Of a stretch of 62,433 nt of DNA, positions 19,563-34,284 are shown piece by piece; position 1 is the stretch's first letter, and each line of letters opens with the position of its first letter. A program made the translations under genes and the position numbers. The stretch covers positions 1 through 62,433 of the forward strand of contig DASRSD010000098.1 in assembly GCA_035656635.1 (NCBI GenBank), in the 5' to 3' direction. The notes beneath the pieces were generated by a model. The model made no database searches and was not told where the DNA came from. It was given only the letters and a program-made list of their open reading frames with translations. The DNA is from Pirellulales bacterium. GTDB taxonomy: Bacteria; Planctomycetota; Planctomycetia; Pirellulales; JADZDJ01.

Positions 19563-22400
<2,838 letters not shown>

Positions 22401-22430
22401 TAAAAAGTAATAAAACTTCCCTTCGCCGCA

Positions 22431-22501
22431 TGCCGCTTTTCGGCACCCCTTGCGGCTTAGCTTGCCCCCTTGCGGCTTTTCGGCACGGCTTGCGGCTTAG
22501 C
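22431..22501. repeat. Two direct 31-bp repeats with hairpin-like core
   Basis: Copies at 22431-22461 and 22471-22501 match at 28 of 31 positions and have a 40-bp period. The shared core is CTTTTCGGCAC and the shared end is TTGCGGCTTAGC; the first copy has the inverted pair TGCCG/CGGCA around TTTT. They lie between the ppdK stop and the transposase-like remnant. Confidence 0.8.
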
Positions 22502-22505
22502 GTTT

Positions 22506-22646
22506 ATGCCCCCTTCCCAAAAACCAATCGTCATCGCCCACCATATTATGTGGACGGCATACGGCTGGTGGCTGCCAAACGATCCGCGGGGCTCGACCTC
22601 CACGCACAAAAGACGGCGTTTGAACAAAAATCGGCCGAATTCTTAG
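22506..22646 (+). pseudogene. 5' remnant of a transposase-like (Y1/RAYT-type) gene
   Basis: A 46-codon frame contains VIAHHIMWTAYGWWLPNDPR, closely like the N-terminal motif (WTTYGTWLPGDxRG) of IS200/RAYT-related proteins that are widespread in planctomycetes. After GSTS the similarity stops and the frame soon ends at TAG (22644-22646). The catalytic HUH motif and Tyr would lie downstream and are missing. It directly follows two palindrome-like repeats. Family assignment is from memory of the motif. Confidence 0.5.
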
Positions 22647-22748
22647 CAGTGTACGTGCAAAGATTTGACTTTTCGCCTATATTAAGGGGACGTAAAAAAG
22701 CATCTACGAGGGTATGCTTTTCTACGCCCTCGTGGAACGGGCGAAGCC

Positions 22749-25274
22749 ATGGTTTTTCGTCGGGCGATCTTACCACTTGCGACTGTGCTGCTGGCGGCAA
22801 TTGGTTGCGCATCGATTGTCGCGCAAGCGTGGGCCGATCCGCCGTCAGGCACGAATGAGCGGCTGGTGTTCGCCGACAATTTTAACGGCACCACTCTTGA
22901 TACTTCCAAGTGGCTGAACTCCAGTTCCAGTGACAATTGGGCCATGCCTGCCAGCGCCGCCACCGCCAACTCCAGCCAAGTCAAAGTGGCTAATGGAATG
23001 GCCACGATCACCGCGCAGCGCACGAGTTCGACCGCGTTTACCTCCGGCGACATCACCACGTATCAAAAATACAATTTCTCCGGCGGTTATTTCGAAGCTC
23101 GTATTCAGTTGCCCAGCACCGTCGGTTCCTGGCCCGCGTTTTGGGGATTGTACACCGGTTGGCCTCCCGAAGCCGACATCATGGAGTACCCCGACACCAC
23201 CAATGGCGGCACCACCGGACTTTCGAGCAGCCAGTACAACACCAACTACCACTACACCAACTCCAGCGGCGGCGACTCAGCCGGGGCCGGCGCGGTAAAT
23301 CCCGGCGCCGGAAACTTGGAAGGCACCTGGCACACCTTCGGCATGCAATGGAATGCTGGCGCCAGCGTGGCCTTTTACTTCGACGGCCACCAGGTTAGCT
23401 CGTACACTGGCTCGACGGTCGCGCAGATGGCCAACATGTACATGCTTCTCGATTATGCCGTCGGCGGCTGGCCGGGCACGCCAAGTACGACACAATGGGC
23501 CATCGGACACACCGATCAAATGAACATCGATTGGGTCCGCGTGTGGCAAACCAATCCTAACAGCGATGCGCCGACAAGCTGGAATGTAAGCGGTAATGGT
23601 AATTTCGGCACGTCCGGCAACTGGACTGGCGGTGTGCCCAACTACGGCAATGAGGTGGCCACTTTCGGCCGGGTGGGCACTGCTTCTTCCGCCTTCATTA
23701 CGATGAACAACTCTTGGCAATTGTTCGGCGGCATTACCTTCGATGGCCTTACCACCGGCACAAATGCCGGCACGACGGCCTACACCGTGGGCTCCGCAGG
23801 TTCGACCAACCAAATTCAATTGGCTTCCACCGGCAACGCTGTTGTTCAAGCCACGGCCGCTAGCACGGCCAACCAAACCATCAACGCGCCCCTCGATCTG
23901 AACAACAATGTCTTCTTTAGTAATTTCATGACCGGCGCCCAAACGCTCAGCTTAGGCGGCACCATCGCCGGCCCGGGCAGCCTGATCGTGGGAACCACCA
24001 ACGGCACGAATGCCCCCGGCACGGTCATCGTGAGCGGAAATAATTCCTACACGGGGGGCACGGTCGTCGGCAGCAACCAGGAAGGCGCTATTCTGGAAGC
24101 AACTTCCAATACCGCACTGAGCACGGGCACAGTAATCATCGGCACCGCCGGCAACGGAACCACTGCCAGGCTCGAAGTCGCCGGCAGCCACACGCTGGCC
24201 AACAACATCGACTTTCGTGGCCGGAACACCAATTCCGTCGGCATCGAAAGCCTCAGTGGCAATAATGTCTTCAGCGGCACTATCAGTGCCGGCGCCGGCG
24301 GCAGCACGTATCAAATTCAGGTCGACTCGGGCAGCAACTTAACGCTGAGCGGGGCAGCCGCCGGGGCAACTACCGCGGGGGTCGCGCTGGAAGCGAGCTC
24401 CACTACTTCCACCCGCACTTTCACGCTGCAAGGCGCCGGCACGGGCTCAATTAACGGCGCAATTGCCAACGGCAACGCCACCGTGACCGTGGCCATTGCC
24501 AAAAGCGATGCCGGAACCTGGATTCTTAACCACAGCAACAGCTACACCGGCCCCACCACCGTCAACCTCGGCACGCTTTCGTTGGGAGTTGCCAATGCCA
24601 TTAGCAGCTCTTCGCAAATTGTGCTGAACGGTGGAATCCTGGCGACCGGCAGTCGAAATCAGAGCTTTACCACGCTGGTGTTGGGCGGGAACTCCATTCT
24701 CGATTTGGGCAATACCCTGCAGGCAAACAATGTCACGTTTGCAGATTCGCACACCACAGCCTGGTCTGGCGCCTTGACGGTGCGGAACTGGAACTTTGGC
24801 GCCGATCACCTATCCTTCGGCGCCGGCGGACTCAGTTCAACACAGCTAGGCGACATCCAGTTTTCCGATTTTCCCGTGGGCGCTTCGCTGATTACTGCGA
24901 CGACTGCCGGAGCAGCCCGGGCAATTGGCGAAGTTACGCCCCTCGTCGGCGACGTGAATGGCGATGGCCACGTCGATGTTTCCGACGTCATGGCATTGGC
25001 ACAAGCCCTGACCGATGTTGCCACCTATCAGCAAAATCGCATGAGCGGCTCCGGCGGCATCACTGCCTCGCCAACGGGAACTTTCACGGCCAGCGATGTC
25101 CAGTTTGCGCTCGATATCAACGGCGACGGCGCGGATAACAACATGGACTTGCAGTCGCTGCTGAACTATTTAATTGCCGGCAACGGCAGCACCGCGGCGG
25201 TGCCCGAGCCAAGCAGCGTGGCCCTGCTCACCCTGGGCGCATTGGGATTCATCTGGACAAAGCGCCGGCGGTAA
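22749..25274 (+). CDS. Exported GH16 glycosidase with autotransporter-type repeats, dockerin and PEP-CTERM
   Basis: The 841-residue protein starts with a signal peptide (ending about AQAWA, residue 29). A glycoside hydrolase 16 domain follows to about residue 270, with the catalytic motif E141-A-D143-I-M-E146 and FSGGYFEARIQLPS. The family hydrolyses beta-1,3/1,4-glucans, laminarin, agarose or carrageenan; the substrate is open. The middle part (about 275-720) carries PEP-CTERM/autotransporter-associated beta-strand repeats (GNNSYTGGTVVGS, HSNSYTGPTTVNLGTLSLG). A dockerin-like pair of calcium loops (GDVNGDGHVDVSDV and LDINGDGADNNMDL) precedes a PEP-CTERM signal (VPEPSSVALLTLGALGF plus KRRR). 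The stop is 3 bases from that of the convergent neighbour. The protein is probably exported and anchored or released by an exosortase encoded elsewhere. Confidence 0.93.
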   Translation: MVFRRAILPLATVLLAAIGCASIVAQAWADPPSGTNERLVFADNFNGTTLDTSKWLNSSSSDNWAMPASAATANSSQVKVANGMATITAQRTSSTAFTSGDITTYQKYNFSGGYFEARIQLPSTVGSWPAFWGLYTGWPPEADIMEYPDTTNGGTTGLSSSQYNTNYHYTNSSGGDSAGAGAVNPGAGNLEGTWHTFGMQWNAGASVAFYFDGHQVSSYTGSTVAQMANMYMLLDYAVGGWPGTPSTTQWAIGHTDQMNIDWVRVWQTNPNSDAPTSWNVSGNGNFGTSGNWTGGVPNYGNEVATFGRVGTASSAFITMNNSWQLFGGITFDGLTTGTNAGTTAYTVGSAGSTNQIQLASTGNAVVQATAASTANQTINAPLDLNNNVFFSNFMTGAQTLSLGGTIAGPGSLIVGTTNGTNAPGTVIVSGNNSYTGGTVVGSNQEGAILEATSNTALSTGTVIIGTAGNGTTARLEVAGSHTLANNIDFRGRNTNSVGIESLSGNNVFSGTISAGAGGSTYQIQVDSGSNLTLSGAAAGATTAGVALEASSTTSTRTFTLQGAGTGSINGAIANGNATVTVAIAKSDAGTWILNHSNSYTGPTTVNLGTLSLGVANAISSSSQIVLNGGILATGSRNQSFTTLVLGGNSILDLGNTLQANNVTFADSHTTAWSGALTVRNWNFGADHLSFGAGGLSSTQLGDIQFSDFPVGASLITATTAGAARAIGEVTPLVGDVNGDGHVDVSDVMALAQALTDVATYQQNRMSGSGGITASPTGTFTASDVQFALDINGDGADNNMDLQSLLNYLIAGNGSTAAVPEPSSVALLTLGALGFIWTKRRR

Positions 25275-25277
25275 GCA

Positions 25278-28187
25278 TCACTTCGAATGGTTGGGGCTGC
25301 GGTTCAATTCCAACCGCCCGCGCAGGCCGTGCTCCTCAAACGTCAGGCCGAAGTTCGCGCTTTGAAATTGGGCCAACGCGGCGCTCATGCTGGGCCTCTG
25401 CTTGGATTGCCCGGGATGCCCATACACCGTCGATTCCATGGTTTTCCACTCGTCGTTCCACACGTATTGTCCGCCGCCGGGGCAAATCAGCTGCGTGTGC
25501 CACAGCCGCTGGTGAACTTTCACCGGGTCTTCGCTAGGGAACAGCCGCTTCCATTCGTTCAAAATGGGAATGTTGCCCCAGGCCCGCATTTGCAGGGCCG
25601 AGTCGGTCAAGGAATCGAAGTCGAGCAACACGCCCACGCCGGAGTTATTCAAAACTTCAAACATCTTTCGGTCTACGTGAAAGCAAACGTTTTCGCCCAG
25701 CCATGGTAAATCGGCCAGGCTTGGATCTGCCGCTTTAGCATCCGGCGTTTTAGCATCTACTGCTTTCGTGCCGCCGCCTTTGTCATTGCTGCTTTTGGTC
25801 CCGGCCGCCTCGCGCGCCGCTTGGCGATCCAGCGCCTGCTTGAGCACCTCTTCGTTCAAACTCACAATCAAGCTGTCGCCGGTCGGCGCATAATACAGTG
25901 CAACATTAGCCGCTTCACCCAGGCTGTGGCGTCCCCGCTCCGTGGCTTTTACGCGCACATAGGGTTGATCTTTGTACGTCAGCGATTCCCACTGCGTCAT
26001 TCCCGGCGCCGTTTGCTCTATCACGGCTCGCACCCCCGTCAAAAATCCAGCCAGCTTGAGCGGGCTGGAAACTTCGGCTTGCAAGGCAATGGGCAACTGC
26101 GACCAACCACCATCGTCGAAAAAATTTTGCCGCTCCTCCGGCTGCATGTCGTGGAGTTTTTTCCAGACCGGGCTGTCATCCACGTACATTGCAACCGACG
26201 AGCCCAGCCAGCCCAGCAAATCGATGTGCGCTTGCGGCGAAAGTGCCGAGGCCATGTTGCTCCAGCCGCGCATCTGCTCCGATTTCGTGTTCAAGGCCAC
26301 AATCAAATGGGCCAAATCGGCATGCCGATCGCCGGCGTCAGGTTGAATTTTCGTCCCGCGCGAAATGTTGACAAAATCGCGATATTCGCTGCCAAACACG
26401 AGCGGCATCACCGTTAAATCGCCGGACAGCTTGCTGTCGGCCACGCCGATGCGCAGGGCAATCGGATCGAATTTCCACCGCCAATTGTTTTCGTAGCCTT
26501 GGCGCCATTGGTTGTAGCCGTCGGCTTCGCTGCGGCTGATTTTATCGACCGGCATTTCCACAATCGGCGTCATCCAGGCCAGCGTGCCATATATGGAAGA
26601 GTTGATCCCGGCACCGCTCAGCGTCAAATCGCCCACATCCGCCGGGGCAAAGTCTGGATGGATTTTGCTGGGCTGCGCGTTTTGGCTTTCCAATTCCGCT
26701 GCGTGTGTGGCGGTCAATTCGGCCAATAACGAGGCCACATAAATTCGCCGGGCCGAAGCAATGCGCCATTGCGGACTGCACCAGCGGCGAATCGTTGGAT
26801 CGCTGATGAACAAAAACGCGGTCTCGTCTTTGTCCCCCAGTGGGTAGCGCGTGCGGAAAAATTTGTACTCGTCGAGCGAGGAAATTGATTCCGATTTTTG
26901 TCCAACCTGTGCCAGCCGCTCCAACTGCTTCGGCGAGTTCGTCACTACCACGGCTCCGTTCAAGGCCGCAATGTACGAGCAAATCGCGCGGTCCGGCGAG
27001 CGAAAGAATTTGTAATTTACTCCGCTCATTTCGCCACTTTCCGGTAGAACCCCTGCGTGCTGGCCAGCATACGAGCCAATTTGCACTGCCAATGCGGTGG
27101 CCAGCGCATCGGGATGATCGGTTTCCAACAGAACTGCCACGTCGGTGCCGGTGGGAAAATACGGATCGGACCCCGTCAGCGCCACGCTCTTAACCGTCGC
27201 TTGACCAACCATGCGGCCCACGTCGCTCAGCGATAATCCCAACTGCTGCTCGTAGCGCTGCCGAATGCCGGCATCTTCGCTGTGCGGCCGGGCCATTTTC
27301 CACAAGAGCGTATCGTCGGCTGACGACTCATCAGCAAACTTCGTCGCCGCGGCAAACGACGGGAAAAATAGCACGTGCTGATCGGCCGGAATCAACTTCG
27401 CCAGCGGGTCGAGTTTCGGACTGGCATCTTTCAGCAGCGGCTTCCAATCGATTTTGTCGACCGTAATGCCCGTCAGCGTGCCGATGTCGATCGACCGATC
27501 TCCCACGTCGGGCGAGCTTTGCAACTGCCGATCTAATTGCAGGTTCTCGCTGATTGCCTGGCCGCCGGAAAACAAATCGTAAGCATCGGTCGGATCAGGC
27601 GGCACTACCCAACCGCTGGGAATGGCCGTGCCGTTGCCATGCCGCTGCGGATCGAGTTCCTCCAACTTTTGATCGGCAGTCTGAACTTGATGGCGAAACC
27701 ATGCGCCTCCCGGAAATCGCTGTTGCCCCAGTTCCACATAGTGATGTGCTTTAGCGAGGTAAAATCCTTCTTCAGCTAATTTTTTTGCTGCCGTGGCCGG
27801 CACGTCAAACTTCACCAAATTCATTCCGCTCATGTCGTCCGTGGGCAAACCCATGCGGCCGGCAACGTCGCGCTTCTCCGGCGCACGAATGAACAAATGG
27901 CCTTGCGAAAAATCGTTTTGCAAAGTTTGAAAGTTCCAAAACGATTGGTCAGGCACATCCAGGTATGCCTCCCCTTCGCCGTCGAGCGTGACGTCAGGAA
28001 CCATGGCATTCCAGCCCGCCTGAAAATGAAACTTTCTATTCGGCTTGGGCAATTCCCCCGACGTAATTTTCAAATCCGCCAGCGGAATATCAAAAAACGC
28101 ATCTTCGGCCGCCGCGCTGCGGACTAACAGAATTGCCACGGCCCACGCCGCCAGTGCCGCACCAAAAACATGTCTGGAAATACGCAT
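25278..28187 (-). CDS. Large exported protein of unknown function
   Basis: The 969-residue protein has a signal peptide (VFGAALAAWAVAILLVRSAAA, cleavage near residue 27) and no further membrane segment. I recognise no domain. Sequence features include repeated folded segments with 'LGLSLSDVGRMVGQ', 'DVAVLLETDHPDALATAL', 'AVVVTNSPKQLERLAQVG' and 'LIVSLNEEVLKQALDRQAA', which look like the repeated 'ALLVSN..AALE' elements of planctomycete DUF3352-like proteins, where a lipid- or ligand-binding fold recurs. A Lys/Asp/Ala-rich linker lies around residue 820. GAGGAA lies 8 bases before the ATG. It is monocistronic, convergent with the GH16 gene. Confidence 0.75.
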   Translation of the reverse strand: MRISRHVFGAALAAWAVAILLVRSAAAEDAFFDIPLADLKITSGELPKPNRKFHFQAGWNAMVPDVTLDGEGEAYLDVPDQSFWNFQTLQNDFSQGHLFIRAPEKRDVAGRMGLPTDDMSGMNLVKFDVPATAAKKLAEEGFYLAKAHHYVELGQQRFPGGAWFRHQVQTADQKLEELDPQRHGNGTAIPSGWVVPPDPTDAYDLFSGGQAISENLQLDRQLQSSPDVGDRSIDIGTLTGITVDKIDWKPLLKDASPKLDPLAKLIPADQHVLFFPSFAAATKFADESSADDTLLWKMARPHSEDAGIRQRYEQQLGLSLSDVGRMVGQATVKSVALTGSDPYFPTGTDVAVLLETDHPDALATALAVQIGSYAGQHAGVLPESGEMSGVNYKFFRSPDRAICSYIAALNGAVVVTNSPKQLERLAQVGQKSESISSLDEYKFFRTRYPLGDKDETAFLFISDPTIRRWCSPQWRIASARRIYVASLLAELTATHAAELESQNAQPSKIHPDFAPADVGDLTLSGAGINSSIYGTLAWMTPIVEMPVDKISRSEADGYNQWRQGYENNWRWKFDPIALRIGVADSKLSGDLTVMPLVFGSEYRDFVNISRGTKIQPDAGDRHADLAHLIVALNTKSEQMRGWSNMASALSPQAHIDLLGWLGSSVAMYVDDSPVWKKLHDMQPEERQNFFDDGGWSQLPIALQAEVSSPLKLAGFLTGVRAVIEQTAPGMTQWESLTYKDQPYVRVKATERGRHSLGEAANVALYYAPTGDSLIVSLNEEVLKQALDRQAAREAAGTKSSNDKGGGTKAVDAKTPDAKAADPSLADLPWLGENVCFHVDRKMFEVLNNSGVGVLLDFDSLTDSALQMRAWGNIPILNEWKRLFPSEDPVKVHQRLWHTQLICPGGGQYVWNDEWKTMESTVYGHPGQSKQRPSMSAALAQFQSANFGLTFEEHGLRGRLELNRSPNHSK

Positions 28188-28500
28188 TCGCCTGTTTCCT
28201 CACATTCAAAATGATTGACCGGCTCCCACCGTACCGTTCCCCACATCCTCTAGCCAAAATACCCCCGACGGCCACTGGCGGTTTCAAACAATCAATTACT
28301 GAAGTGCCAGCACTATAATGCCGACGGCCCATGCGGCCTAGCACAGAAAGACTTTTTAGTGCGCGCATGTTTCAATTCACGCTGGCGCGAATGTTGGGAA
28401 GCACAGCCTTAGCGGCCGCTCACCCCATCACCTCCTCACCTCATCAACTGCGCACACCTAACTTCATCCGTCATTCGGATTTCGTCATTCGACGTGGACC
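28188..28500. other. Intergenic region with word-like direct repeats
   Basis: This stretch contains the promoter side of the large exported gene. At its right end are short repeated words: CCTCACCTCATC-type words near 28424-28446 and CGTCATTCG twice (28469-28477, 28483-28491) separated by GATTT. No gene was recognised. Confidence 0.45.
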
Positions 28501-28668
28501 CTAACTGTGCCCGCTCCCTCCTTGGGCCCGCAGCTGCGACGTTTCCTGTTGGCTGATGTGCAATTTACGTCCCCGTTTGCGGGCATCATCGTCTGGCCGT
28601 TTTTCTTTGCCGTGATGGTCTTGCGATTTAGGCTTTCGATCTTGCATCTTTTGTGCTTGCATTCTCAT
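28501..28668 (-). CDS. Possible small basic protein
   Basis: A 55-codon frame with GAGG 7 bases before its ATG encodes a strongly charged product (KMQDRKPKSQDHHGKEKRPD, then DDDARKRGRKLHISQQE). It has no membrane segment and no recognised family; the composition suggests a disordered or nucleic-acid-binding peptide. Support is the ribosome site and the coherent charged composition only. Confidence 0.4.
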   Translation of the reverse strand: MRMQAQKMQDRKPKSQDHHGKEKRPDDDARKRGRKLHISQQETSQLRAQGGSGHS

Positions 28669-29009
28669 GGTAAAACCTCGTCTTCGGCTGATGTTTAGAG
28701 TTCGCCCCGCCAGTCACGGGTGCATGTTTCATGCCGCCAATGAGAGTTTTGGCCACTTTGAACATCAGGAGAGTTTGGGTCCCCTTGGCATTGCTTTGGG
28801 TGCCCGTGGCATAGCGCACGGGTGCAACTGCTGGCCGGGCACCCCATGCGACAATCTTGGCACGTAGAAACGCCTCCATGGAGAAGCGATCTTCGAGATC
28901 ACCCCTCGCAATTGTTCGCTGAAGGGAAGTACCGAGTGGCCCACTTTGGCCCTTACACCCGTTCCGCAGAGTGGGACAATGCGGGGGGGGACAAGTGGAG
29001 GGTGCATTT
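28669..29009. other. Intergenic region without recognised gene
   Basis: About 340 bases upstream of the secreted-protein gene. It holds GGGTGC/GGCAC-rich words (around 28718-28850) similar in style to the palindromic elements at 30221-30345, and the GGAGG ribosome site at its end. No coding signal was seen. Confidence 0.4.
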
Positions 29010-29678
29010 ATGTGTTTCAGAACGCTGTGCATTGCGTTTCTTGCGTGCATATCTTTAGCGGCATTTGGTGATCCGCCAAATCAGTCGAGTACGGTGACCA
29101 TCCCGCTCAAAGATATTTGGGCGTCGAATATGCCGGGCACAATCGACGTTCGTGATTTGGAGCCGGAAGCCTATGGCAGCGATGCAAAAAAATTGCCGCT
29201 CGAACAATATCAACAGGCGTATAAATCATCAAAGATAACACAAATCATTATCAGTTTGGAAAAACAGCCTTATGACCAAGTTGCTTCGGATGGTTTCGCA
29301 GTAGAGGGAACGGGCAAGACCGCACTAAATGCCGCTTGTGACGTGATAGTAGAACACAAAAAGCCACAAAAAATACTTGTGGGTCAAGATGTATCCATTG
29401 TGTTCTTCTCTCGTGAATTTAATTATTACATTCACATTACGGAAGTTACACAACAGCAAAACACGTTTCATATTCAATATCAATTTGTTCCACACGATAC
29501 CAAAGATACCACCGTGCATTTTGCTTTGATTCCTGTCGGTAAGCTGTCAGGTGGTGTTTATTCTGTCGAAATTGAGCCGACACAGCATTTGGAGCAAAAA
29601 CTCAGAGATTGGGAAAAGCGGATCGTGTGCAAGTCTTTCTCTTTCACCGTGGCGAACGATACGAAGAAAAAGGAGTAA
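29010..29678 (+). CDS. Secreted protein of unknown function, coupled to a truncated subtilase
   Basis: The 222-residue product starts with a signal peptide (MCFRTLCIAFLACISLAAFG). I place the start at 29010 because GGAGGG sits about 8 bases upstream; an in-frame ATG 13 codons earlier has no such site. The mature protein is mixed alpha/beta with no recognised domain (SKITQIIISLEKQPYDQVAS, FHIQYQFVPHDTKDTTVHFA) and ends in KKKE. Its stop lies 3 bases before the ATG of a truncated subtilase gene, the same spacing and a nearly identical junction as between the WD40 gene and the full-length subtilase on the other strand. The base composition is more AT-rich than that of the neighbouring core genes. 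Confidence 0.7.
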   Translation: MCFRTLCIAFLACISLAAFGDPPNQSSTVTIPLKDIWASNMPGTIDVRDLEPEAYGSDAKKLPLEQYQQAYKSSKITQIIISLEKQPYDQVASDGFAVEGTGKTALNAACDVIVEHKKPQKILVGQDVSIVFFSREFNYYIHITEVTQQQNTFHIQYQFVPHDTKDTTVHFALIPVGKLSGGVYSVEIEPTQHLEQKLRDWEKRIVCKSFSFTVANDTKKKE

Positions 29679-29681
29679 ACC

Positions 29682-30194
29682 ATGAGTTATCGTGGCATAA
29701 GAATTTCTTTGGTTGCCGGAATTCTACTCACCGCACAATGGACATTTGCGAGTGTCGATACAAACGGTCCAGATGGAATCAGTTCGACCGGGCTAACCGG
29801 CTTCAATACCAATCAACCACTGACCGGCAGCGGTATAAAAATTGGCCAAGTTGAAGTGGCACGGCCAGCAGTTCCAAATTTTGATTCCAATGCGTCGTCG
29901 AGTATCAAGCCTACAGCAGTTTTCGTCCAAACGGGTCCGCCTACGGCAAATGCAACTCCACCTGAGGACGATGAACATGCAGAAGAAGTTGCGGGCATTA
30001 TGATTTCCCAAGACCCGTTAATTCCTGGCGTTGCACAGAATGCACTGTTGTATTCCTCTGCATTCGTTGATGACTCACAAGCTCAGGCGGCAGAGCAGGT
30101 AGAGTTGGTAACAATGCAACAAATTGCATCGCAGCCAAATATGACGGCGGTCAACAACAGTTGGGGACAATCTTTATCATCCATATTTATTTGA
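29682..30194 (+). pseudogene. Truncated paralogue of the S8 subtilase
   Basis: The 170 codons encode a signal peptide and the first part of a subtilase-like domain. It is collinear with the full-length protein at 30554-32548: TNGPDGISSTGLTGFN against TIGPHGINSQGLLDFN, SGIKIGQVEVARP against DGISIGEVEVQRP, the His region EHAEEVAGIMISQDP against FHAEWVASVMVSQDP, and AVNNSWGQ against AVNHSWGQ. Just after WGQ the similarity stops and a TGA follows within eight codons. The Ser region, beta-rich C-terminus, dockerin and sorting signal are absent. Palindromic repeats begin about 50 bases further on. It could be a decaying duplicate, or a stable short product. Confidence 0.8.
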
Positions 30195-30220
30195 AGTTCA
30201 CGAACCCGAATTAGCGCGCG

Positions 30221-30345
30221 GGTGCCACTGGCTCCGCACGAATTCCACTGGTCTGCCAGTGTTCGAGTGCCACTGGCTCTGCCAGTGTTGCCTGCCTGCA
30301 CGACAAAACACTGGCCAAGCCGGTGCCACCCAGTCCGGCTACGCA
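30221..30345. repeat. Cluster of CACTGGC..GCCAGTG palindromes
   Basis: CACTGGTCTGCCAGTG (30246-30261) and CACTGGCTCTGCCAGTG (30271-30287) are near-perfect and perfect palindromes. GGTGCCACTGGC (30221-30232) and CACTGGCCAAGCCGGTGCCACC (around 30307-30330) are further half copies. The cluster begins just after the truncated subtilase and ends before the small membrane-protein frame. Confidence 0.8.
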
Positions 30346-30362
30346 GAGGTTACAATGCGTGA

Positions 30363-30557
30363 ATGAATAACACGCTCTTTAGATTGATTTGCGGTGCGCT
30401 AGCCGCGTACTTCTTGTGGACACTGCTATATGTTCAGCACGGATGGCTCGCAACAGCTTGCCTGTGTTTTCTGATTGGCCTGTTCGCAACCTTCTCAATG
30501 CTCGGTAAACCGTCCACCACCCGTATTCGCACTTTCTTCCAGGCTTACAAGCTTTAG
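30363..30557 (+). CDS. Possible two-helix small membrane protein
   Basis: The 64-codon frame encodes two hydrophobic segments (LFRLICGALAAYFLWTLLYV and LATACLCFLIGLFATFSML) and a basic tail. Membrane character makes a real product plausible, but the ribosome site is weak (AGAGG 13 bases upstream) and no family was recognised. Its end overlaps the convergent subtilase stop by 4 bases. Confidence 0.4.
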   Translation: MNNTLFRLICGALAAYFLWTLLYVQHGWLATACLCFLIGLFATFSMLGKPSTTRIRTFFQAYKL

Positions 30558-32548
30558 CCGATCAATTTCCACTTGAGTCCGAGGCACGAAGAGCCGCCAA
30601 GTCGTTTCCGGAGTAACGCCAGTGCGCCGATAGCCAATAGCATGAGCGATGTTGGCTCAGGCACTGCATTCGTCGAACCATTGCCTGCCAAGAGGAAGTT
30701 AATCAAGGCTTGAATATCGAGATTGTTGAATTTGCCGTCGCCGTTCACATCGCCCAGAAGCGATAGGTAGTCGGTAGCAATACCGATTGAACTTGCGTAC
30801 CCAGTCTCGTTGGTTAACGCCTTCTCCATTGCGACGATATCCGCCGAATCCACGTGCCCGTCTTGGTTAATGTCGCCAGCGCCGGAAGTCAATGCTCCAA
30901 CTCCGTCGGCCCACCAAGCGACGGCATAGTTTTCCGCACCAGTGGTGGTATTAAACGGGTCCACCCAAAATTCATACTCGCCGGTCGTAGGAATTTGAAA
31001 AAAGATATGATCGACCGTGCCCGTGTCACTGATTGATTCAGCAATGGCTTGATTGATATTGGCAGAGTTCTTTGGCAGCAGATACAAATCCAGATCGGTA
31101 TATTGATCATATCCTGGATTACCGAATGGATTCGATGATGGTTCGAATATATCGCCTCGATTGTAGACTCCATCAGCCCCAGCCTTTGTAACCGTGCGAT
31201 CAAATGTCAACGTGATTGAAATAAAACTTCCGGCAGGCAACTGCTGATTCAATCGGTAAATCGACGGAAAATTAGATCCTCGGGCATCACTTCGTCCATA
31301 ATCCCAACCAATCACCGGAACCTCCGTATATGTGTTCGATACTTGAAAAGAATGATATTCTCCGGCTGCGAATTGCTTGAGTGCTCTTTTAGCGTCTAAC
31401 TCGCCTGTTCCCATTTGCTGGTCGAGTGCTACAAGCCCCAAGCCAGTGTTAACGTCATCATCGTATGCCGGTGAATCAAACCACGTCGAAGTGCCGTCCT
31501 GCATCACGACAGTTCGATCCATGCCGAGCAGACCATTTGCTGGAATTGGTAATAGTCCAGCATGTGTATATCCGACGTTATCCTGTATCTTGTCCGCAGA
31601 GTTCATCAATACAGCCTTCATTACCTGGTGGTGCGAATAATCACTGCTCCAATTTGGCGCTACTTTATTTAATCGTTGCTGGCCGTACTGATCCAAAAGA
31701 GCCGCCGTCGCAGTGACCATTGGTGCAGCGTAGCTGGTTCCGCTCCGAACAGGGATTGTCATACTTCCGTTAAAATCTGTTAACTGGATACCGTCACCAG
31801 GCGCGATTAGGTCGATGACAGTGCGGCCTCCGATAGGTTCTTGGTCGTAGGTATTTAAGTTGGCAACCTTCCGGTAAACCAATCCGTTGCCATTCAACAA
31901 GATCGTCGAAGCTCCAACATCGATTCCGTTAAAGGAGTCATCTGGTATCGGAATCCCTTTTCCTTCGTCCCCTCCTGAAACCTGCAACACGTCATAATTA
32001 CTGGCAATCCAATCATAGCCAAGCGATATTTGCGAATTCCCATCAATGATTGCACCGGGCCTCGCAAACTGACCCCAGCTATGGTTGACGGCCCGCATTC
32101 CGGTCTGTGAAGCAACCTTTTGAATCGATAGAAGTATGTCGGCGTCACTTGTGCTATTGTTATTAGTGTTCTCGTAAGCGGAGGCAAAAAGTGAGGCCTG
32201 CGTTGCCACCCCTGTTGTCACGGGGTCTTGTGAAACCATTACACTTGCCACCCATTCGGCATGAAAAAAAACATCTGTATCAGGTGGAGCAACGTTTTCA
32301 ATCGCAAATACGGCGGCTACTTTTACATTGAAATTTGAATTCGAGTCCGAATCATAGTTTGGTTTACCTGGTCGCTGAACTTCCACCTCACCAATCGAAA
32401 TGCCATCTCCGGTAAGCGGCTGCCCATTAAAATCCAAAAGGCCCTGTGAGTTTATGCCATGCGGGCCTATAGTATCCTGACTGGCATCTGCTAACGAGTG
32501 AGGAATAAGAAAACAAAGCACCACAATAAGTGATCGACAGCGTTTCAT
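30554..32548 (-). CDS. Exported S8 subtilase-like protein with dockerin and PEP-CTERM
   Basis: The 664-residue protein has a signal peptide ([17 protein letters not shown]), an S8 domain (about 40-370), a beta-rich domain (about 390-560), paired dockerin-like calcium loops (GDINQDGHVDSADI, GDVNGDGKFNNLDI) and a PEP-CTERM signal (VPEPTSLMLLAIGALALL, RKR). The Ser motif RSGTSYAAPMV (Ser272) and the His motif (His96 in FHAEWVAS) are kept. The usual Asp position reads Glu54 (ISIGEVEV against subtilisin's VAVIDSG) and the oxyanion Asn reads Asp194 (GGDEG against GNEG). It may be a variant or weakened protease. A 15-residue tail follows the RKR cluster, unusual for PEP-CTERM. It follows the WD40 gene by 3 bases with AAGGAG as ribosome site. 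Confidence 0.88.
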   Translation of the reverse strand: MKRCRSLIVVLCFLIPHSLADASQDTIGPHGINSQGLLDFNGQPLTGDGISIGEVEVQRPGKPNYDSDSNSNFNVKVAAVFAIENVAPPDTDVFFHAEWVASVMVSQDPVTTGVATQASLFASAYENTNNNSTSDADILLSIQKVASQTGMRAVNHSWGQFARPGAIIDGNSQISLGYDWIASNYDVLQVSGGDEGKGIPIPDDSFNGIDVGASTILLNGNGLVYRKVANLNTYDQEPIGGRTVIDLIAPGDGIQLTDFNGSMTIPVRSGTSYAAPMVTATAALLDQYGQQRLNKVAPNWSSDYSHHQVMKAVLMNSADKIQDNVGYTHAGLLPIPANGLLGMDRTVVMQDGTSTWFDSPAYDDDVNTGLGLVALDQQMGTGELDAKRALKQFAAGEYHSFQVSNTYTEVPVIGWDYGRSDARGSNFPSIYRLNQQLPAGSFISITLTFDRTVTKAGADGVYNRGDIFEPSSNPFGNPGYDQYTDLDLYLLPKNSANINQAIAESISDTGTVDHIFFQIPTTGEYEFWVDPFNTTTGAENYAVAWWADGVGALTSGAGDINQDGHVDSADIVAMEKALTNETGYASSIGIATDYLSLLGDVNGDGKFNNLDIQALINFLLAGNGSTNAVPEPTSLMLLAIGALALLRKRLGGSSCLGLKWKLIG

Positions 32549-32551
32549 CGT

Positions 32552-33574
32552 TTACTCCTTTTTATTCGGCTTAACGGCGTCAGACTCTGGCCTCCAAATC
32601 AAAACAAGTTTATCTCTTCCCGCTGAGGCCAACTTCTTACCGTCCTTGGAGTACGACAAGTAATTAACTTGGTCGCCATGACCTTCGAGCAACCCATGGA
32701 GTTGCCCGCTCACGTCCCACAATTTAATGGACGGTTCCGTACCACCGGTTGCGATGGTTTTTCCGTCGGGATTGAACGCAACGCAAAAAACAGCTTTTTT
32801 GTCAGCCTGAATTTGTTGCACCATTTTTTGAGCTTTCACGTCCCAAATTTCAAACATTCCTGCATTCTCACCTCCAATAGCGAGGAGTTTATTATCAGGC
32901 GAAAAGGCTAAGCTTCGTGCAGGGCCCAGATAAGGCCACGCCGTAAATAGCTCAGTGCCACTTGGGAGCTGCCAGACATGAACCCTTGGAATTTTGGAGT
33001 ACGGCCATTCAGCAATTCCTTGAAGGCCGCCTGCGAGCATCGTTCCATCGGGTGAGATTGCCACCGTTAAGGACCTAGCAATATCTCGTTTATCAACAGG
33101 GAAAACTTGCAACTGTTTGCGTCTTTGCAAATTCCACACAGTAATCTGTGATTGCTCTGCGATTGCAAGATCTAAACCATCAGAAGAAAACGCTAAACCA
33201 TTCACGCCATCGGCAGGGCAGGCTTCTTGTTGCTGCTCGCCTGTGATTGGATTCCAGAAAGTAACAGGTTTTAGACGTGCCGTGGCAGCAATTAAATTAC
33301 CTTCCGGTGAAAACAAAACGGTAACTGGGCCTCCTAACTTGTCGCCTGTATTGTAGATTGCAAGGCGCCTGAGTTCCTTTCCGTTCAAAGCATCCCAGAT
33401 TCGTGCAGTGCCATCGTCGCTGCCAGATACAACTAACTTCCCGTCAGGGGAAAGCGAAACCGAGGTTACGAATCGTGTGTGGCCGACGCATTGAAGAGGT
33501 TGCCCTAAAGCAGACAGATAAACCAGCGTGACCCCACAGGCGAAAATGAAAATACGCAGCGTTCTGAAAAGCAT
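32552..33574 (-). CDS. Secreted WD40 beta-propeller protein
   Basis: The 340-residue protein has an N-terminal hydrophobic export segment (IFIFACGVTLVYLSALG) and about seven WD40-type repeats, e.g. GHTRFVTSVSLSPDGKLVVSGSDDGTARIWD, GHGDQVNYLSYSKDGKKLASAGRDKLVLIW. It has no kinase or other fused domain. WD40 propellers bind partners; an exported one read together with a subtilase 3 bases downstream suggests that it binds or targets the protease or its substrate. AAAGGAGA lies 7 bases before the ATG. The last residues KPNKKE and the downstream junction resemble those of the secreted-protein gene at 29010. Confidence 0.9.
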   Translation of the reverse strand: MLFRTLRIFIFACGVTLVYLSALGQPLQCVGHTRFVTSVSLSPDGKLVVSGSDDGTARIWDALNGKELRRLAIYNTGDKLGGPVTVLFSPEGNLIAATARLKPVTFWNPITGEQQQEACPADGVNGLAFSSDGLDLAIAEQSQITVWNLQRRKQLQVFPVDKRDIARSLTVAISPDGTMLAGGLQGIAEWPYSKIPRVHVWQLPSGTELFTAWPYLGPARSLAFSPDNKLLAIGGENAGMFEIWDVKAQKMVQQIQADKKAVFCVAFNPDGKTIATGGTEPSIKLWDVSGQLHGLLEGHGDQVNYLSYSKDGKKLASAGRDKLVLIWRPESDAVKPNKKE

Positions 33575-33729
33575 GATTGCACTCTCCTTTTGTCCCCGCT
33601 CATTATCTCACGATGGGGGGACGGGACAAGTAGCAAATTAGGCCATTGCCAAATGCTAGCCGTCAACTGGTGATTGGAAGTGACAACCCGTTTTTCATTG
33701 CGGCCACCTTATAAAAATCTCTGCCTGCT

Positions 33730-33752
33730 TTCTCTGCGCCTCTGCGCGTGAA
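33730..33752. repeat. Solo arm of the GxxExxY-cassette inverted repeat
   Basis: TTCTCTGCGCCTCTGCGCGT followed by GAA resembles the right arm of the cassette at 48528-49014 (TTCTCTGTGCCTCCGTGGTGAA), and it stands alone in the intergenic stretch 33575-34284. The rest of that 710-base stretch holds a candidate operator (34120-34145) and no recognised gene. Confidence 0.5.
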
Positions 33753-34119
33753 TTGTTTTCATCGACACTCTTGAAATTGGGCCACTGGTTCTGCTAGGCT
33801 GTACGCAGTAGTGTTCATGTGTACATATACTGCTTAGACTGTTTAGATTTTGAATTCTTATGCGTTTACTTTTTTGCAACCTGATGCTGGGGCCGCGCGG
33901 CGGATGTTGTTCGTCCGGGTTGAAATGTTCCGCACGGCCACAGCGGGATCATCGTGGTCCGATTAAATCACCCACCATTCACCAAAAATGATTGCTGCCG
34001 GACGTAAACTCGATTGCTTTTGTCACCTGCCGCGCGGAGGACGGCTGCGGTTTCGCAGTGACCGTCGGCGATTTTGCATAGCCGGCCGACGCTTTCGCAG
34101 TGCGGACTTGGTCGCAGCC

Positions 34120-34145
34120 GTGACAAAATGTTCCAGTTTTGTCAC
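34120..34145. promoter_or_regulatory. Candidate operator palindrome upstream of the acyl-CoA dehydrogenase
   Basis: GTGACAAAA (34120-34128) and TTTTGTCAC (34137-34145) form a perfect 9-bp inverted repeat with an 8-base spacer. A third half site TTTTGTCAC occurs at 34018-34026 and a partial one (GACAAAA) near 34164. This is typical for a dimeric regulator. It lies about 140 bases before the gene start. No regulator gene is in view. Confidence 0.55.
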
Positions 34146-34284
34146 CAAAATAAAAATCCAGGACAAAACTTGGCCGGAAGCAGTGGCCGATTTCTGCCGT
34201 TTCGGATTCGCGGCGGTGCCCTATAATTCAGTACCGGATTTTCTGCCTGTTTTTGCCGCGCCCAATTTTTGCAGGAATTTTGTA

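Follow-up and report, generated by a model that had tools for sequence, protein, structure and literature searches.

Comparison of two neighbouring operons in a Pirellulales bacterium gives good support to an old operon duplication in which the middle of one copy, the gene for the partner of a subtilase, was later exchanged. The left operon (29010-30194, + strand) of the 62,433-nt stretch of DNA analysed here (herein referred to as the window) encodes a small secreted protein, P29, and a truncated subtilase, and converges on the right operon (33574-30554, - strand), which encodes a secreted WD40 beta-propeller and a full-length subtilase. We hypothesize, giving the idea an even chance of being right, that a subtilase without a propeptide is stabilised by P29 in the manner of PrcB, and that the P29 and the full-length subtilase left in the duplicated operons, one of which has an exchanged partner, act in trans.

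Two Convergent Operons and Their Features

Re-examination of the open reading frames bore out what the original prediction had said of the gene content: four frames in the orientations given above, upstream genes that both end in Lys-Lys-Glu tails (...KKKE* and ...NKKE*), and 3 bases between stop and start (TAA-ACC-ATG and TAA-ACG-ATG). The features are as follows.

29010-29678, + strand: P29 gene; 222 aa, signal peptide, Ig-like C-terminal domain, remote PrcB_C relative
29682-30194, + strand: left truncated subtilase; 170 aa, PF00082 4e-6
30554-32548, - strand: right full-length GQVE-type subtilase (S8); 664 aa, KP-43-like C-terminal domain, dockerin and PEP-CTERM
32552-33574, - strand: secreted WD40 beta-propeller in partner position; 340 aa, WD40 3e-40
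28937..29033, + strand: left operon 5' leader and signal-peptide start, homologous to those of the right operon
33551..33645, - strand: right operon 5' leader and signal-peptide start, from the leader alignment
29668..29684, + strand: left junction AAAAGGAGTAAACCATG; the SD overlaps the last P29 codons and stop
32546..32562, - strand: right junction AAAAGGAGTAAACGATG; junction match from the genome pattern search
30264..30333, no strand: REP-like GTGCCACTGGCTCTGCCAGTG repeat, directly after the truncation point of the left subtilase
22400..34278, no strand: block absent from the matching place in a same-genus genome (G018), from genome comparison

Both subtilases exceed the PF00082 gathering score of 21.8 bits (right copy 55.6, left fragment 26.8), and the right copy carries three domain matches (PF00082 7e-15, dockerin 4e-11 and PEP-CTERM 2.5e-5); P29 has no Pfam match. 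The left subtilase keeps its signal peptide, the Glu strand and the catalytic His region, ends at residue ~163-170 without the Ser region, and has no trace of the remainder downstream. P29 (left) and the full-length subtilase (right) each occur once in the genome.

An Old Duplication with Exchange of the Partner

The junction AAAAGGAGTAAAC-N-ATG is common to both operons, which hold its only two sites in the 4.9 Mb genome, and the 17-mer AAAAGGAGTAAACNATG likewise occurs exactly twice, at the two window junctions (the same pattern read backwards, used as a control, has no occurrence in the genome). Alignment of the 5' leaders spans ~98 nt and reaches a local score of 36, where 1974 random window pairs score at most 18 and 210 start-anchored window pairs at most 17. 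The aligned segment covers the ribosome site, the start codon and the first signal-peptide residues (M-x-FRTL-x-I). From leader to junction, comparison of P29 with the WD40 gene gives no match comparable to those of the leader or junction. Beyond the junction homology resumes: the N-termini of the left and right subtilases are 45% identical over 164 aa (E 4e-36), with 57% nucleotide identity. A shared leader, junction and subtilase around a non-homologous middle thus indicate partner exchange, with its borders visible on both sides, and the 45% identity of the subtilases marks the duplication as old.

Chance or a resemblance of ribosome sites only is ruled out as the source of the shared junction by the leader homology and the two unique genome matches, and the amino acid and nucleotide identities rule out a recent duplication. 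A tree built from 40 subtilase N-termini makes the window copies sisters with support of 82/86, which is not decisive; uniting the right subtilase with the only other WD40-partnered subtilase (locus L089) costs 15.5 log units and is not rejected (p-AU 0.107). The original prediction, that an inverted duplication was combined with a change of upstream partner, is thus supported by homologous leaders, junctions and subtilases, and the homology reaches beyond the ribosome site. The accompanying description of the left gene as a truncated copy of the same subtilase is right as to homology and truncation, and wrong if it is taken to mean a recent copy of the right gene. The prediction would have fallen with alignment over the ribosome site only and pairs restricted to this genome; we found neither.

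P29 Recurs as the Usual Partner of the Subtilase

Across 297 genomes of the order, the subtilase is found in 23 and P29 in 18, mostly in one family. (An initial single-sequence scan of genome contigs gave no matches; the pairing counts were made on larger regions fetched around the loci.) Of 34 P29 loci in the family rich in this gene, 30 have P29 directly 5' of a subtilase and in the same orientation, often overlapping it or a few bases away, with gaps of -4 to 100 nt (median ~14) in the 26 measurable pairs; the other four loci have no visible subtilase, and one of these is at a contig end. Several loci have counterparts in Pirellulales/Planctomycetota MAGs in a scan of 84,980 species. Distances among P29 and among subtilase sequences are weakly correlated (r 0.24, Mantel p 0.0035). 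Coupling by 3 bases and the KKE tail are not supported as a hallmark of the system: both proved private to this genome, given the spread of gaps elsewhere and the absence of the tail from every other pair among the 26.

The expectation of recurring pairs with a variable upstream partner is borne out insofar as two kinds of partner recur, with the amendment that the common pair is P29 and subtilase. The WD40-subtilase pair is a rare, derived form: at one other locus, L089, a WD40 protein stands directly upstream of a related subtilase instead of P29, and its WD40 protein is the sole match to that of the window both among 23 genomes (threshold E<=1e-40) and among 44 genomes from a single family (threshold E<=1e-45). 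The predominance of P29 in the partner position makes an ancestral WD40-subtilase pair unlikely. P29 is duplicated before one subtilase at L084, L105 and L114. A related arrangement is a 671-aa open frame (L091 6728-8743; L141) in which three tandem P29 units are fused before one subtilase.

The subtilase gene is split in two frames unusually often (L096, L102, L108, L109, L110, L111 and L114; also L112). The split points differ, falling at residues about 165-268, between the catalytic His and Ser regions; this disfavours a programmed frameshift and makes decay or assembly error likelier.

A Propeptide-Less Subtilase with Glu in Place of the Catalytic Asp

The same scan of 84,980 species returned this type of subtilase across cyanobacteria, including reduced diatom endosymbionts. 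All 26 aligned members have Glu56 where the catalytic Asp would be expected, and in 81 wider rows, mostly cyanobacterial, that position is Glu in 78, Asp in 1 and a gap in 2. His96 and Ser272 are invariant in the aligned members, and of the wider rows 80 keep His and all 81 keep Ser. In a profile alignment with an intracellular protease of solved structure, the Glu falls on the catalytic (subtilisin) Asp. The subtilase thus departs from the Asp-His-Ser triad of Peptidase S8 (PF00082) in having Glu for Asp, and its membership in the fold stands. The oxyanion-hole Asn is kept in 76 of the 81 mostly cyanobacterial rows and in about half of the planctomycete copies; the window copy has Asp at this position, and D, G, T, A, P, V and other residues occur elsewhere. 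Because about half of the planctomycete copies, including that of the window, have lost this Asn, the proteolytic activity of the window subtilase is doubtful on its sequence.

The model of the right subtilase (mean pLDDT 73.9, pTM 0.84) superposes on mature KP-43 over 392 residues (Z 30.5), and its residue 28 falls on mature residue 2, which leaves no room for a propeptide; the ~25-30 residues that precede the mature-enzyme start are too few for one of the I9 type. The dockerin, the PEP-CTERM tail (PF07589, 24.6 bits) and a gene for the genome's one PF09721 exosortase (144 bits) point to sorting of the right subtilase to the envelope via PEP-CTERM. The cyanobacterial relatives shown are ~530 aa long and have no dockerin or PEP-CTERM tail. 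These relatives are also propeptide-less and have no P29 nearby, and at least two subtilases of planctomycetes (L088 and L103) occur on their own; P29 is thus not required by the whole subtilase family. At 36 of 74 cyanobacterial loci, mostly in Nostocales (L140, L142, L146-L158 and others), the subtilase gene is closely followed by a serpin gene in the same orientation (offsets about 0 to 1 kb), which makes a conserved protease-inhibitor neighbourhood.

P29 Is Remotely Linked to PrcB

P29 is modelled (pLDDT 87.9) with an Ig-like sandwich at about residues 91-220, for which searches of solved structures gave no convincing relative (Foldseek E >= 1.1; VIA-align Z <= 3.7), a model-based result that need not signify a new fold. 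A search with a P29 profile picks up proteins of ~190 aa in another planctomycete family (E 1e-9 to 4e-6), and hhalign of P29 with these intermediates gives a probability of 96.7 (E 3e-10, 93 columns). Two of the three intermediates tested pass the cut-off of PF14343 PrcB_C (27.1 vs 24 bits), and none of 22 P29 members reaches the PrcB_C gathering score, the best direct match having an E value of 0.13. The intermediate family thus suggests a link, albeit a remote one, between the C-terminal Ig-like domain of P29 and PF14343. Like PrcB, P29 is an exported product of the first gene before a subtilase, at the 30 paired loci. Some members (L117, L118, L099 and L105 among them) have a lipobox-like Cys by eye, and the window copy has none. 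Beyond its own group P29 has only the weak C-terminal matches in the other family, with no subtilase near them. In that family (L219-L223), the conserved ~190-aa PrcB_C-domain protein has no signal peptide and no subtilase nearby, and its gene is flanked by one of phytanoyl-CoA-dioxygenase-like and one of helix-turn-helix/receiver-domain-like type.

PrcB is the product of the first gene of prcB-prcA-prtP and interacts with PrtP, which requires it (PMC8167434); when prcB is deleted without polar effects, transcription of prtP persists and PrtP is not detected (PMC8167434). The P29-subtilase pair resembles this dentilisin complex of Treponema denticola (PrcB-PrcA-PrtP) in having a small (~22-24 kDa) exported first-gene product and a later subtilase, a surface protease, along with the remote domain link between P29 and PrcB_C. 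It differs in that there is no PrcA gene and P29 directly adjoins the subtilase, in that P29 falls under the PrcB_C cut-off, and in the subtilase itself, which has a dockerin and PEP-CTERM instead of the lipid anchor of PrtP, Glu instead of Asp, and no propeptide, whereas PrtP is cleaved after residue 158. The remote link to PrcB, part of the already described dentilisin complex, softens the suggestion of an undescribed two-component surface system made by the original prediction. A second parallel is the Aeromonas sobria serine protease (ASP), likewise a propeptide-deficient subtilase with a separate adjacent gene for an exported partner, ORF2, which serves as external chaperone and temporary inhibitor of the protease (PMC5638518). 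ORF2 is encoded downstream of its protease, unlike P29, which is upstream, and no ORF2-like chaperone occurs among the sequence and fold matches of P29. The window subtilase shares its catalytic fold and C-terminal beta domain with KP-43-type subtilases (1wmd, 5fax), from which it differs in the Glu for catalytic Asp and the added dockerin and PEP-CTERM tail. Clostridioides CspC/CspA pseudoproteases also combine a subtilase fold with altered active-site residues; unlike in these, His and Ser remain in the window subtilase family, and the acid is Glu in nearly all of its members.

The upstream protein could also be an exchangeable recognition or docking subunit, P29 or WD40 directing the anchored protease to different targets, a reading that fits two unrelated binding-type folds at one position behind the same leader and junction, the recurrence of the WD40 form in another family, and the multiplication or fusion of P29 before one subtilase (L084, L105, L114, L091). 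We consider it unlikely, as WD40 forms are just 2 of about 34 and P29 relatives have PrcB_C domains, PrcB itself acting in complex stability. Improbable, in our estimation, is a role for P29 as a secreted inhibitor (antiprotease or immunity-like) that shields the producer against the protease it makes: an external subtilase chaperone can double as an inhibitor, as ORF2 does (PMC5638518), and the serpins downstream at 36 of 74 cyanobacterial loci show that inhibitors accompany this type of subtilase elsewhere, but that neighbourhood belongs mostly to one lineage, some subtilases stand alone, and P29 matched no known inhibitor fold (in a weak search).

Genomic Setting of the Block

In the same-genus genome G018, the gene for a PEP-utilising enzyme (window 19563-22400, 93% identical) adjoins an acyl-CoA dehydrogenase gene, and unrelated sequence of ~0.9 kb takes the place of window 22400-34278. 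Neither P29 nor the GQVE subtilase was found in G018 or in a genome of the same family (G035), and the cassette genes have a GC content of 0.43-0.49 against 0.55-0.60 around them; horizontal gain of the block is likely. The same-genus genome has copies of the REP-like GTGCCACTGGCTCTGCCAGTG repeat that are 65-70 nt long and 86-88% identical, and a 151-nt query with the repeat gives a single match in its own genome. A neighbouring gene (window 22749-25274) encodes an 841-aa protein with PATR, dockerin and PEP-CTERM. Multiple S8 copies are ruled out in the genome: the subtilase query gives 69 scattered matches, nearly all to its dockerin/PEP-CTERM tail, and beyond the two window copies all are such tails.

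The least probable reading is that the block is a decaying, non-functional island, gained horizontally and losing genes, with the shared junction as a fossil; low GC, absence from same-genus and same-family genomes, the truncated window subtilase and frame-broken subtilases at at least seven other loci accord with it, but the frames of P29, WD40 and the right subtilase have stayed open through deep divergence and keep their signal peptides and sorting tail.

Proposed Mechanism and Implications

For the PrcB-like stabilising role of P29 that we favour, the ancestor would have been one two-gene operon, with the small secreted P29 first and a propeptide-less Glu-subtilase second, that was duplicated long ago in inverted orientation. 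In the right copy, the stretch from the signal-peptide start to the last partner codons would have been replaced by a WD40 propeller, and in the left copy the subtilase would have lost its Ser half. By analogy with PrcB, P29, made first, may bind the nascent exported subtilase and enable its folding and surface accumulation, so doing the job of the absent propeptide. The decayed copies would be complementary, left P29 and right subtilase working in trans, and the WD40 protein may be a newer recognition or binding partner. The main weaknesses of this proposal are that P29-less subtilases exist, that catalysis is uncertain and that the link to PrcB is remote. More tentatively, one may imagine a whole family with swappable partners, in which envelope-anchored, propeptide-less Glu-His-Ser subtilases of cyanobacteria and planctomycetes would depend on small adjacent partners; segmental replacement could turn a PrcB-like partner into a WD40 one with the leader, signal start and coupling site kept, and the copies in the window would complement each other in trans.

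If true, the PrcB-PrtP arrangement, which has been described as restricted to oral treponemes, would be one case of a wider principle, by which propeptide-less exported subtilases depend on an exchangeable partner made from a separate gene upstream of their own. The family would also offer a natural case of the change of the catalytic Asp to Glu across two phyla, and whether a Glu-His-Ser subtilase cleaves would become a directly testable question.
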